A DNA stretch of 46,026 nt from a virus. Shown piece after piece: positions 7,324 through 11,507 of the stretch. How positions within the stretch are numbered: position 1 is the stretch's first letter; each line of letters opens with the position of its first letter. The stretch covers positions 1 through 46,026 of the IMG/VR virus record IMGVR_UViG_3300045110_000146. One strand, given 5' to 3'. The position numbers and the translations under genes are program-made. A model generated the notes under the pieces. That model saw only the letters and a list, made by a program, of their open reading frames with translations, made no database searches and was not told the DNA's origin.

Positions 7324-7575
7324 ATGCCCCTACCCCGGAACTCGGAAAGAACTAAATCAGGTTTTTTGGGTTTTGTCCTAGCTCTTGCGCTTGCGGGCCT
7401 CTATGGCTTCGCGCACGCTCGGGTAAAGCGGTTCCACCCGCCCCCTAGCACGGCGGAAATTGGATTGCATATTAGGGATTTGCTTCCGTTTGCCGTGCTT
7501 GTGGAAGGCAGAGGACTTTTTCCTCGTTTTGTAGCTTCGGCTTCGTTGCATACGCTATTCCCTAGAATAGATTGA
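7324..7575 (+). CDS. Possible small membrane protein (83 aa)
   Basis: Not recognised. After a basic N-terminus it has one hydrophobic segment (about residues 13-31), then a Pro-rich stretch. Its ribosome binding site is weak (AGG), and its last 14 bases overlap the convergent deaminase gene. The membrane segment and position favour a real gene, but the evidence is thin. Confidence 0.4.
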   Translation: MPLPRNSERTKSGFLGFVLALALAGLYGFAHARVKRFHPPPSTAEIGLHIRDLLPFAVLVEGRGLFPRFVASASLHTLFPRID

Positions 7576-7951
7576 TCGAATCCCACTCGCCCGGCCCCGT
7601 GGTCCAGACAACCCTAGCGATGCCACAGGCAACTAGCGCCCCCATACAGTAGGCGCATGGCTTGGCCAGCGCCCAATCGCCGTTGCGCGCCAGCCGCACT
7701 ACATACACTCTACCCCGCTTACCCCAACCCTCGCCCAGGGCTAGTAGCGCAGCCACCTCTGCATGGATGCCGCTATAGGTTGGGAAACCCCAGCGGGCCA
7801 ATTGAGGGTGCTGGTGGCGAGAATTGTGGCGTCTAGCACCGCGCGATTCGTCGGCACTCACGACGAAGCATCCCATACGAAAACGTACTTCGCTATATAG
7901 CGCCTCTTCGGCGGCAAGATCCAGAAAAGCCTTATCCCGTAACTTACCCAC
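7562..7951 (-). CDS. Zinc-dependent cytidine/dCMP deaminase-like protein
   Basis: A 129-residue member of the cytidine deaminase fold. The zinc and proton-shuttle motif is HAEVAAL (His63, Glu65), and the second zinc motif is PCAYC (Cys99, Cys102). Family members deaminate dCMP, cytidine, guanine or tRNA adenosine. The small size does not decide among them. The start is GTG with GGGGGAAGAGG upstream. It is the last gene of the leftward NAD/nucleotide operon, so nucleotide metabolism is the likely context. Confidence 0.78.
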   Translation of the reverse strand: MGKLRDKAFLDLAAEEALYSEVRFRMGCFVVSADESRGARRHNSRHQHPQLARWGFPTYSGIHAEVAALLALGEGWGKRGRVYVVRLARNGDWALAKPCAYCMGALVACGIARVVWTTGPGEWDSINLF

Positions 7952-7986: not shown

Positions 7987-8505
7987 TTACACATTTTTAC
8001 TTGCTACACCCCTACAGCACCCGCAGCAGCCATGAACACCATTGTCCTTGCCACTGACAATAGCAAGATCATCGGGGTCGGGATGACCAATACCATGCTC
8101 GCAAATCCTTTCCATAATCCCCCGGTCAATCCTAAAGTGTTGTGGCCATGCGCGTAGCGCATGCTTGCTACGCTTGTGTATGCAACACACATCACCGGGG
8201 CACTCCTCGCGCTTATGCACCCTTAGCTTCTCCATGGTATGCTCTAGCTTCGTCGGCCTAAGCGCCTCCGGGGCTTGGCCCCGCCTAAGGAAAAGAGGCT
8301 TAAAGGTCGGCTTTACCGCTCCGCGACTCAACACCCCCTCTTTAGGGTGTGCCTGGCCCCAGCGTACCGCTACCATCCAATCGTCAAACGCCTCGGGGAA
8401 CTTAGCGATGACTGTCTCCCGTGTAACGGAATGCTGGCGGGCTTCGAAGCTTTGCTTCATCATGTAATCGGCAAAGGCAATTTCACAAGGGGTAAGCTTT
8501 TTCAT
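7987..8505 (-). CDS. Unknown protein with a C-terminal Cys/His cluster (172 aa)
   Basis: Not recognised. The C-terminal 40 residues contain ICEHGIGHPDPDD followed by HGCCGCC, a likely metal site. The centre has CCIHKRSKHA. Its ATG overlaps the TGA of the NAMPT-like gene (ATGA), so the two are co-translated. A zinc-binding regulatory or nucleic-acid role is possible but unproven. Confidence 0.7.
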   Translation of the reverse strand: MKKLTPCEIAFADYMMKQSFEARQHSVTRETVIAKFPEAFDDWMVAVRWGQAHPKEGVLSRGAVKPTFKPLFLRRGQAPEALRPTKLEHTMEKLRVHKREECPGDVCCIHKRSKHALRAWPQHFRIDRGIMERICEHGIGHPDPDDLAIVSGKDNGVHGCCGCCRGVASKNV

Positions 8506-9935
8506 GCCCGTAGCCTTGCCCTAATGCGGTCAAAGCTATCGTCCCAATACAGCTTGCCGTCCCGCCACACAAGCTTTAGTTCGTTGAGCCACCTCGCCTC
8601 GGGCGGGGCTTGTTCTACACACATCAGTGCCCCATCCCGGCCCTTCAACACCGCCAACCGGCCACGGGCCGAATTCTTCACCCCATCATCGGTCGCTGGT
8701 GTCTTGTACAGATCAACGGCCTTGCCGTTGATCTCGGCCCAAGTGGCTTTCATGGCGAAGCCATAAGTGTCGCGGGTCACATATTGGTAATTGTAGCTAC
8801 CAATTCCAAACACCACGTTGGTGCTGGCAAAGCCCTTAACTTGTAACCTTGACACGATTTCCATAGCTCTGTCGTAGTTGATGGCATCGCCATAGATAAC
8901 ACCAATGTGGGGGTCAAGCTGCTTAAAGCCGTAGCTTGTCTTGGTGCCGCCGAAGATTTCCCCCAGCAATTCCACGACACCCTTTTTGGTGTCCGTGCCA
9001 CACAAAATGTCCGCAGGGTTGCCGCTGTCAGGTCTAATCACCAACTTACCATCCCTCGCCATAATGCGGTCCTTCAGCTTGGGCAACACATTAGCAATGA
9101 CTTTCCAAAGGTCCCAAGTGTCGGACACGACACTTACAATACCCTTCGGGTAAAGATCCAACAGCCTACCAAACGTATCCAATTCGCTTTCGTCGCCTCC
9201 GGCGCTCATGACCGAGTGTTCCGTAGCTGGAACCGACCCACCAACCAACCCATTGCCATGCTCTCCATGGTAGTACTTTTCAATAAATGGCAACGCCGGA
9301 ATTGTATCCGTCCCCGTGAAGCTCAACAAGTGCGCAGCACCCGAAAGCTGTGCAGCCTCAAGGCCGCTCAATCCGCGCATGGAAAAGTCGTGGCCCTGCC
9401 ACCCGACAAAGTCGGGGTCTCCCCCTGTGATTGCCGCTGCGGCATCTAGCATCCTTCGGATTCGCCACGCAGTGGTTGCCGACGTGCAAGCCATCCACAG
9501 CGCGTTGCTCATGATGGTTTCGAAGTAATTGGGCAACCAGAAGAAGTCGGGGTGCGTGTTCTCCACGGTCAAGCAAGGCACGCGCAGAGGGCACCTTGTG
9601 CCCTCGGGCAAAGCCCGAAACTCAAGTGGTACATAACCCAAATCATGTAGGGCACGAATGTGGTCGGTGCCAATGTCGTTAGGGCCAAGGTAGCCGTCTA
9701 TCAATTGCTGGTACTCATCACAGACTTCACTAACTGGCCGCACAAAGAACTCGAAGTCCATCATGTCTTGCATATAGTGCTTCAAGAAGTATTGCAACCC
9801 GAAGAACACGATTTCCTTCTGGCCCTCGACTCGGCTCGTCCGTGGAGTCCAGTTGCTATACACCTTAGTCGTACCCTTGGGAAATTGTCTGCGATGGTCA
9901 ATTTTGTAGCCGTCGATTAATAGCATCGGGTTCAT
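8502..9935 (-). CDS. nadV: Nicotinamide phosphoribosyltransferase-like enzyme (NAMPT or Namat)
   Basis: 477 residues, the usual length for NadV/NAMPT. The N-terminus LLIDGYKIDHRRQFP corresponds to the family's DSYK..H..QYP. The active-site segment SVPATEHSVM carries the catalytic His, VSDTWD follows, and IRPDSGN binds the ribose-phosphate part. The classical reaction joins nicotinamide and PRPP to make NMN. Phage relatives called Namat instead use ADP-ribose pyrophosphate and make NAD directly. The partner gene at 10036-10893 fits either pathway. The gene overlaps both neighbours by ATGA. Confidence 0.9.
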   Translation of the reverse strand: MNPMLLIDGYKIDHRRQFPKGTTKVYSNWTPRTSRVEGQKEIVFFGLQYFLKHYMQDMMDFEFFVRPVSEVCDEYQQLIDGYLGPNDIGTDHIRALHDLGYVPLEFRALPEGTRCPLRVPCLTVENTHPDFFWLPNYFETIMSNALWMACTSATTAWRIRRMLDAAAAITGGDPDFVGWQGHDFSMRGLSGLEAAQLSGAAHLLSFTGTDTIPALPFIEKYYHGEHGNGLVGGSVPATEHSVMSAGGDESELDTFGRLLDLYPKGIVSVVSDTWDLWKVIANVLPKLKDRIMARDGKLVIRPDSGNPADILCGTDTKKGVVELLGEIFGGTKTSYGFKQLDPHIGVIYGDAINYDRAMEIVSRLQVKGFASTNVVFGIGSYNYQYVTRDTYGFAMKATWAEINGKAVDLYKTPATDDGVKNSARGRLAVLKGRDGALMCVEQAPPEARWLNELKLVWRDGKLYWDDSFDRIRARLRA

Positions 9936-10033
9936 TTACGTCTCCTATAGTAGTCAGAGAGTTCTATGACTACTATTCCCACGGCTAGAGCTATAACGAC
10001 CCCGACTAGGGCGGAGAAGATGAAGGAACACAT
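9932..10033 (-). CDS. 33-residue single-pass membrane protein between the two NAD genes
   Basis: ATG at 10033 to TGA at 9932. The first 25 residues are almost wholly hydrophobic (MCSFIFSALVGVV and onward), followed by ELSDYYRRRK. Its TGA overlaps the ATG of the NAMPT-like gene, and its ATG lies two bases after the stop of the PRPP-synthetase-like gene. The tight packing supports translation. Function unknown. Confidence 0.65.
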   Translation of the reverse strand: MCSFIFSALVGVVIALAVGIVVIELSDYYRRRK

Positions 10034-10035
10034 GT

Positions 10036-10893
10036 TCACGCTAGCTCCTTTTCCATCATGGGTTTCACCCATGGCATCAACTCAATAACCGTCAGGTTCC
10101 TCGGAGGCACTTCCCTTAGGGGAAGTGAATCAGTCGTAATGATTTCTTCGTAGTGCTTGTTCAACTCCTTGAACCCCTTGCTGAACACTCCGTGTGTCAC
10201 ATATAGGTCCAATATGCTTGCACGACCAACGAGATTCTTGCGGATCTCTTGTGCGAGCCCAATGAAAGTTCCCCCGCCGTCGCAAATATCGTCTACCACC
10301 AAGTACCTTCCCATCCCTGGCAACGGGTCAACTTCAAAGCCGCTCAGCTTGCCATCCCGTGGATCGCGCACCTTGCGCCCCATGATGGATGGAATGTGCA
10401 ACGCCGAGGCCACAGCCTCGGCTCTGCCGACCGCGCCTTTGTCGGGACAAATCACGGCGTTGTATGGGCGCATGATGGCGCTGGCAATCTTGTCCATGCC
10501 AAGGGTGACGCACCTATCTAAATGTACTCCTACCAAGCGGGAGTGTGGGTCAACCACTACAACAACGTCATGCCCCATGGCATTCAACAGAGAGGCGAAG
10601 ATGCGCAGAGTATTTGGCGTGCCTGGCTCGGGGTGGTCCTGCCTAGCACCGGGAAAGTAAGGCAAGTAAAGCCCAAGCTTCCCAGCCCCCAATCTATCTA
10701 CCGCGTCCAAGGTGCAAAGCAAATACCCAAAGTCCACCATATTGCTAACATGGGCTTCTACCCAGACGCTATCTTCGTGCTCTACTAGCCCCAATGGTAC
10801 CACGCAGTGGGGCTCCCCTGCGGGGAACAAGAACAACTTAGGAACCCCACTCGTTCCACGAGTGATGTTATGGATCACAATGGCGTCGGTCAT
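10036..10893 (-). CDS. prs: PRPP synthetase-like enzyme (Prs or ADP-ribose pyrophosphokinase Adps)
   Basis: 285 residues. It has the ribose-phosphate pyrophosphokinase signature: YFPGARQDH near residue 99, the VDPHSRLVG strand, and the PRPP-binding loop VVDDICDGGGTF. The family transfers pyrophosphate from ATP to ribose-5-phosphate. The phage enzyme Adps does so on ADP-ribose. It is shorter than typical bacterial Prs (about 315). Its ATG overlaps the TGA of the phosphoesterase gene, and the NAMPT-like gene follows. The pair could remake NAD from the breakdown products ADP-ribose and nicotinamide. Confidence 0.88.
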   Translation of the reverse strand: MTDAIVIHNITRGTSGVPKLFLFPAGEPHCVVPLGLVEHEDSVWVEAHVSNMVDFGYLLCTLDAVDRLGAGKLGLYLPYFPGARQDHPEPGTPNTLRIFASLLNAMGHDVVVVVDPHSRLVGVHLDRCVTLGMDKIASAIMRPYNAVICPDKGAVGRAEAVASALHIPSIMGRKVRDPRDGKLSGFEVDPLPGMGRYLVVDDICDGGGTFIGLAQEIRKNLVGRASILDLYVTHGVFSKGFKELNKHYEEIITTDSLPLREVPPRNLTVIELMPWVKPMMEKELA

Positions 10894-11507
10894 TGCGTTA
10901 CCTCAATCGTGGTTACTTCACCACAATCCAGAACCTTGAACAAGGTCCCACAGTCTGGAATCCTAAACTCTTTGCTTTGATGCCAGTGCCCAAACAGCCA
11001 TGCCTTTGGTTGGTGTACCTCTAACATGACTCCAAGTAACTGCCCTGTAAGCGTCGGATGAAGCGGCTCATTAGGAAACATACTGTTTTCCATTAGCTCA
11101 GCTTCGATGGCTCTTGGCGGGCCATCGTGGGTTACAACAACATCGGGCTTGGCTGCCTTATAGGCAACCAATGTGGCTTCCCCTTGTTCAGGGCTTAGTT
11201 GTTCCAAGTCCTTGAAAATATCCCTACCCTCTACACGCAAGTGCCGGTCAATGCTCCACGCACCACGAACGTAGAAGACATCATTCCAACTGCCGAAGTC
11301 ACCCAAATAATGTGGCAGCTTGACTAGCTCGGGGTAGTTGTCATGATTGCCGCCCAGAACCTTGTGCTTCTCGGGATCGTACCCATCTAGGTATTTGTAG
11401 TTAAAGCCGCAGTCGCCCAACTGCAAGGTTTTCTCATACTTCCGCATGAGTTTGCCGTGTAGCAGATAATCCCCGTGTATGTCTCCAATCACTGTAAGCC
11501 GCGTCAT
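10890..11507 (-). CDS. Calcineurin-like metallophosphoesterase
   Basis: 205 residues with all five metal motifs of the family: GDIHG (8-12), GD near 31, GNHDN (53-57), VTHDGP near 126 and FGHWH near 173. Members hydrolyse phosphomonoesters, phosphodiesters or nucleotides. The substrate cannot be told from sequence. AGGGGAAGCC precedes the ATG, which overlaps the stop of the gene upstream. Position directly before the NAD pair hints at nucleotide or signalling-nucleotide turnover. Confidence 0.88.
   Translation of the reverse strand: MTRLTVIGDIHGDYLLHGKLMRKYEKTLQLGDCGFNYKYLDGYDPEKHKVLGGNHDNYPELVKLPHYLGDFGSWNDVFYVRGAWSIDRHLRVEGRDIFKDLEQLSPEQGEATLVAYKAAKPDVVVTHDGPPRAIEAELMENSMFPNEPLHPTLTGQLLGVMLEVHQPKAWLFGHWHQSKEFRIPDCGTLFKVLDCGEVTTIEVTQ

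Follow-up and report, generated by a model that had tools for sequence, protein, structure and literature searches.

The closest described systems are the NARP1 pairs of Bacillus phage SPbetaL1 (OQ921341.1) and Mycobacterium phage DyoEdafos (NC_053511.1 gp77-gp79), in which Adps, an ADP-ribose pyrophosphate synthetase homologous to PRPP synthetase (Prs), works with Namat, a nicotinamide ADP-ribose transferase. Our definitions of both enzymes are those of PMC12774641 and PMC13232231. Namat is defined by a NAMPT core together with an adenine clamp, in which a loop residue, Arg40, is combined with the SCH motif GSX(Phi)X(Phi)X(Phi)TRD, whose positions 3 and 7 are aromatic (PMC12774641). The structure, mutants and activity of SPbetaL1 Namat have been published (PMC12774641), and DyoEdafos Adps has been tested biochemically (PMC13232231). 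NARP2-type systems, as in the Xanthomonas LucasX, Myxococcus Mx1 and Rhizobium V1VFA-S phages, combine NadV with NadM, an NMN adenylyltransferase. They resemble the locus analysed here in the NAMPT fold and in phage-encoded NAD+ synthesis, but they lack the adenine clamp (GGGLLQ/GGALLQ..RD) and have an NMN adenylyltransferase as partner rather than Adps.

The locus lies on a 46,026-base virus contig from IMG/VR, the whole of which we call the window. It derives from an uncultured phage, is classed 'linear' and may be a fragment. The pair that it carries is a clear further example of NARP1, a known pathway, and does not amount to a new kind of system; it adds an uncultured phage, represented by this 46-kb contig, to the range of a counter-defence pathway described only recently.

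The gene run on the phage contig

Elsewhere on the record are genes for a large terminase, a portal/head-tail adaptor, a major head protein, a primase and an HNH endonuclease. The NAMPT-like and PRPP-synthetase-like genes, which the sequence-only reading had recognized as a pair at 8502-10893, belong to the following run:

10890..11507, minus strand: calcineurin-like metallophosphoesterase, 205 aa; its stop overlaps the Adps start (ATGA)
10036..10893, minus strand: Adps, 285 aa (complete ORF, Pfam/PHROG, loop, tree)
9932..10039, minus strand: 35-codon ORF preceded by the ribosome-binding site AAGGAG and presumably expressed, its product predicted to be a single-pass membrane peptide
8502..9935, minus strand: Namat, 477 aa (complete ORF, core and clamp residues, tree)
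7987..8505, minus strand: 172-aa ORF with no assigned function; its start overlaps the Namat stop (ATGA)
7562-7951, minus strand: gene resembling cytidine/deoxycytidylate deaminases (PF00383), located immediately downstream of the 172-aa ORF

Both family assignments are borne out by complete reading frames and by profile matches, which for Adps are phrog_619 (208 bits) and Pfam Pribosyltran and for Namat phrog_448 (632 bits) and Pfam NAPRTase/NAMPT_N. The four junctions that join the metallophosphoesterase, Adps, the 35-codon ORF, Namat and the 172-aa ORF are all of the translational-coupling type. It had been proposed that Adps and Namat overlap; the coupling stands, but the direct overlap does not, as the Adps stop (10038-10036) is separated from the Namat start (9935-9933) by 100 nt (9936-10035) and a third ORF. 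Because the 35-codon ORF overlaps both genes by 4 nt (GTGA with the Adps stop, ATGA with the Namat start), the coupling is real but runs through this third small ORF. The window differs in this respect from SPbetaL1, which likewise has Adps adjacent to Namat, whereas DyoEdafos shares with it the presence of an extra gene between the two. This gene encodes the RyR-domain glycosidase RyDEP in DyoEdafos and a small membrane peptide in the window. PF02026 (RyR) had no match in the window, which is weak evidence against a RyDEP-type partner, since the controls for PF02026 had no match either. None of the PADLOC defence-associated models matched the pair or its neighbours.

The earlier observation that no NMN adenylyltransferase gene is visible also held. 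PF01467 matched in all 14 control genomes (14/14) but nowhere in the 46,026 bases of the record, which may be incomplete. The window thus encodes neither of the two NARP2-type features, namely a phage-encoded PF01467 protein and a NAMPT without the adenine clamp.

Residues and trees of Namat and Adps

Among solved structures, window Namat matches best with PDB 9w5x/9w5w (520 bits, compared with ~258 bits for human NAMPT). Both entries are SPbetaL1 Namat, as encoded in OQ921341.1 (100% identity), to which window Namat is 54% identical, as against 35% to human NAMPT. Residues were mapped in an alignment of 171 sequences. The catalytic core comprises D8, Y10, F184, R187, D210, R301 and D303, the last five of which are identical to SPbetaL1 F189, R192, D215, R306 and D308, and the conserved segment PATEHSVM holds a His that we take, from its role in the family, to be the phosphorylatable one. 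The adenine-clamp residues are all present (R35, Y381, Y385, T387 and D389): the SCL stacking residue R35, within TPRTSRVEG, corresponds to Arg40 of SPbetaL1, and the SCH motif reads GSYNYQYVTRD, with Y381 and Y385 as its aromatics. The residue after GSY, the first Phi, is Asn, where Thr or Ser is usual. All 20 ligand-contact positions tested are the same as in SPbetaL1 except for Y in place of F at 392, both aromatic. Across the alignment, aromatics at both positions together with TRD occur in 146 of the 171 sequences; the clamp stacking positions differ in human NAMPT (K, G, K) and in LucasX NadV, and phage NadV proteins mostly have GGGLLQ or GGALLQ where Namat has the motif. A maximum-likelihood tree of 87 proteins (quick search, SH-aLRT only) places window Namat beside two viral Namat proteins (L045 and L003), within a Namat side that includes SPbetaL1 Namat and the clamp-bearing Namat of DyoEdafos, both of which have been characterized biochemically. 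Eight NAMPT-type enzymes, human NAMPT among them, are split off by a 100% branch of length 1.28; one of the NAMPT rows, Magneto, is a long branch.

Adps has the catalytic and ATP elements FPAGE, ARQDH, DPHS and KVR, thereby keeping F..GE, ARQD, DPHS for DLHA, and K-x-R of Prs. The fold and the ATP-binding and catalytic Lys/Arg elements are also those of E. coli Prs (b1207), and the two proteins differ in the substrate loop. The Prs loop (DTGGTL) binds the 5'-phosphate of ribose-5-phosphate; b1207 has DTGGT, whereas the window loop DDICDGGGTF has DGGGTF in its place. DyoEdafos Adps has the same loop as the window, and SPbetaL1 Adps has DDLSSFGGTF. Over the tree rows, nearly all Adps show DD[ILMV]CDGGxTF, and six of the seven Prs show DD..DT(G/A)GT, the remaining one having DTGVRA; the lone 'Adps' row with a Prs loop is E. 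coli Prs itself, present in both lists. The changed loop would presumably favour ADP-ribose. The contrast between CDGGxTF and DT(G/A)GT offers a sequence test for Adps that complements the published Namat motif. Window Adps neither carries the Prs-type loop DD..DT(G/A)GT nor groups with Prs, and it scores 96.5 bits against TIGR01251, below the cut-off of 113. In the Adps tree it falls within a 99% clade of 43 rows together with DyoEdafos Adps, and a 100% branch of length 2.02 separates Prs from it. Support is weak for the deep branches within Adps, and we therefore make no claim on relations between its subgroups. The protein is divergent: none of the relatives found exceeds about 43-46% identity in the aligned region, and identity is 39% to DyoEdafos Adps and about 28% to the tested SPbetaL1 Adps.

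Thus, in the phylogeny that the sequence-only reading had proposed as a check, against Adps/Namat on one side and true Prs/NadV on the other, both genes group with tested NARP1 enzymes. Its preference for a NARP1-like pathway is upheld by the clamp residues, the Adps-type loop, both trees and a record with no PF01467 match. The window pair is very probably a NARP1 pair that would rebuild NAD+ from ADP-ribose and nicotinamide and could restore NAD+ after a host NADase defence; its reactions, its use of ADP-ribose over ribose-5-phosphate and its counter-defence role are proposed by analogy with tested relatives. With ATP, Adps (10036-10893) would pyrophosphorylate ADP-ribose at its terminal ribose to give ADP-ribose pyrophosphate, from which Namat (8502-9935) would form NAD+ by adding nicotinamide. 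Such a two-step synthesis would need neither NMN nor an adenylyltransferase. ADP-ribose and nicotinamide are both products of host NADases (TIR, SIR2, SPARSA, Kongming and similar defences), so that the phage might restore NAD+ during infection.

Genomic company in viruses and Bacteroidota

The pairing is ordinary, as Adps accompanies Namat in most viral loci. Of 80 viral loci retrieved with Namat as the sole query (L002-L081), 75 also carry Adps; the remaining five include short contigs. Among all 163 distinct viral Namat loci, a set that overstates co-occurrence because it was partly fetched with Adps as query, Adps is found in 151, upstream in 140 and with a gap of <=20 nt in 86. In the window the two genes lie side by side on the same strand, 100 nt apart, with the 35-codon ORF linking them.

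We searched 84,980 bacterial and archaeal species genomes with window Namat. The best 80 matches (L198-L277) are nearly all from Bacteroidota, carry the full adenine-clamp motif without exception (80/80) and have Adps within 3 kb in 42 cases. The neighbours at these 80 loci include metallophosphoesterase (44), Tpt1/KptA (32), NrtR-type NUDIX (27), NADAR (23), macro (19) and ADP-ribosylglycohydrolase (18) genes; example gene runs are L198:413-4452, L231:353-4449 and L216:364-4452. In phages and bacteria alike, the genomic company of the Adps/Namat family is ADP-ribose handling. The ADPR-1'',2''-cyclic phosphate that KptA releases is converted back to ADP-ribose by 2H, macro and related enzymes (PMC9503650). 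Adps and Namat would close the circle from KptA-derived ADP-ribose to NAD+, and in Bacteroidota they may form a chromosomal route, linked to RNA repair, that recycles ADP-ribose to NAD+. With KptA, macro, NADAR, ADP-ribosylglycohydrolase and phosphoesterase genes around Namat, the pathway may also serve general ADP-ribose recycling there. If confirmed, the clamp-bearing Namat of Bacteroidota would matter more than the phage pair, as they suggest a general route from ADP-ribose to NAD+.

These loci bear on an alternative that concerns the purpose of the pair and not its chemistry. A NARP1 pair might be mainly metabolic, returning ADP-ribose from RNA repair, ADP-ribosylation and other NAD-consuming reactions to NAD+ for replication, with no particular defence targeted. 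Bacteroidota chromosomes hold the same enzymes with KptA, macro, NADAR, ADP-ribosylglycohydrolase and NrtR-type NUDIX genes, and a purely anti-defence role is unlikely there. However, every NARP1 pair of phages that has been tested to date counteracts NAD-depleting defences (PMC12774641, PMC13232231), and metabolic and anti-defence roles are compatible; we regard a mainly metabolic purpose in the phage as a rather unlikely alternative.

Other genes lie between adps and namat in viral loci. RyR-domain genes do so in L116 and L130 as well as in DyoEdafos. Deoxyribosyltransferase-like proteins (PF15891) are encoded there at L036:5477-5962, L058:5509-5991, L062:5406-5903, L065:5349-5825 and L068:4270-4758; PF15891 matched in four scanned loci, and the L062 protein is nucleoside 2-deoxyribosyltransferase-like by similarity. 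From their position, these proteins are candidates for freeing ADP-ribose from cyclic signals, like RyDEP. Macro-like proteins with the signature HGCNCxxTMGAGxA ... PxIGxxLAGGxW occupy the same place at L041:4964-5494, L052:3887-4423, L062:3753-4268, L069:3164-3664 and L073:5473-5988, with Pfam Macro just under its cut-off in L062 and no Pfam match in L041, L069 and L073. A further family, marked by DFDNTVYD or DFDDTVYD, about 130-185 aa long, HAD-like by eye and without a Pfam match, is encoded between adps and namat in eight of the nine viral Namat loci possessing it. Its members include the following:

Viral: L020:3816-4277, L028:7530-7964, L034:2966-3394, L039:5609-5995, L040:7518-7931, L043:2604-3023, L053:7493-7921, L071:4863-5417
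Bacteroidota MAG: L207:2272-2670

The small membrane ORF and the flanking genes

It could be imagined that the five products of the coupled run, from the metallophosphoesterase through Adps, the 35-aa peptide and Namat to the 172-aa protein, make up an extended NARP1 unit. In it, the phosphoesterase would liberate ADP-ribose that is held in phosphorylated or cyclic form, and the peptide would localise the enzymes or act on a membrane-bound defence effector. We consider such a unit improbable. The 35-codon ORF starts at a GTG at 10039 (or an ATG at 10033), is preceded by AAGGAG and ends at 9932; its product, VNMCSFIFSALVGVVIALAVGIVVIELSDYYRRRK, has one predicted membrane span and a basic tail. 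Small membrane ORFs lie at the same place in L087, L096, L119, L135, L142 and L150, a recurrence in a few loci that may be chance, and the 35-aa ORF was accordingly rejected as a conserved protein. The metallophosphoesterase has weak matches (40-47 bits) in four viral Namat loci and was set aside as a conserved NARP1 partner, as was the 172-aa ORF, a relative of which adjoins NARP1 in one of the 12 loci found. Relatives of the latter lie mostly outside NARP1 loci, although one, in L194, is directly downstream of Namat; Gordonia phage Daredevil has a gene resembling the 172-aa ORF, and no NARP1 was found in its vicinity. As neither gene recurs with NARP1 in close relatives, we do not count either as part of the pathway; the metallophosphoesterase is a possible accessory.

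Classical salvage and database names

Of seven phage NAMPT-type loci, four have an annotated NMN adenylyltransferase as the adjacent gene and one more has a cytidyltransferase there. In vitro, SPbetaL1 Namat accepts PRPP as well and then gives NMN (PMC12774641), and by analogy window Namat may form NMN too. Classical salvage, in which a PRPP synthetase would feed NadV/NAMPT to make NMN and a host NMN adenylyltransferase would complete NAD+, can draw on this activity, on the place of both proteins within the wider Prs and NAMPT folds and on their NCBIfam names, but we reject it on residues and trees as very improbable, because the clamp residues and GSYxYQYVTRD motif of the window are absent from human NAMPT and from 7/7 phage NAMPT-type proteins checked, Adps is without the Prs loop DT(G/A)GT, and both trees put the pair with tested NARP1 enzymes.

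Databases still label Adps and Namat as Prs and nicotinate phosphoribosyltransferase. The latter name is given to window Namat by NCBIfam NF006629 (540 bits), and clamp-bearing Namat in phage records carry it too, a widespread misnomer.
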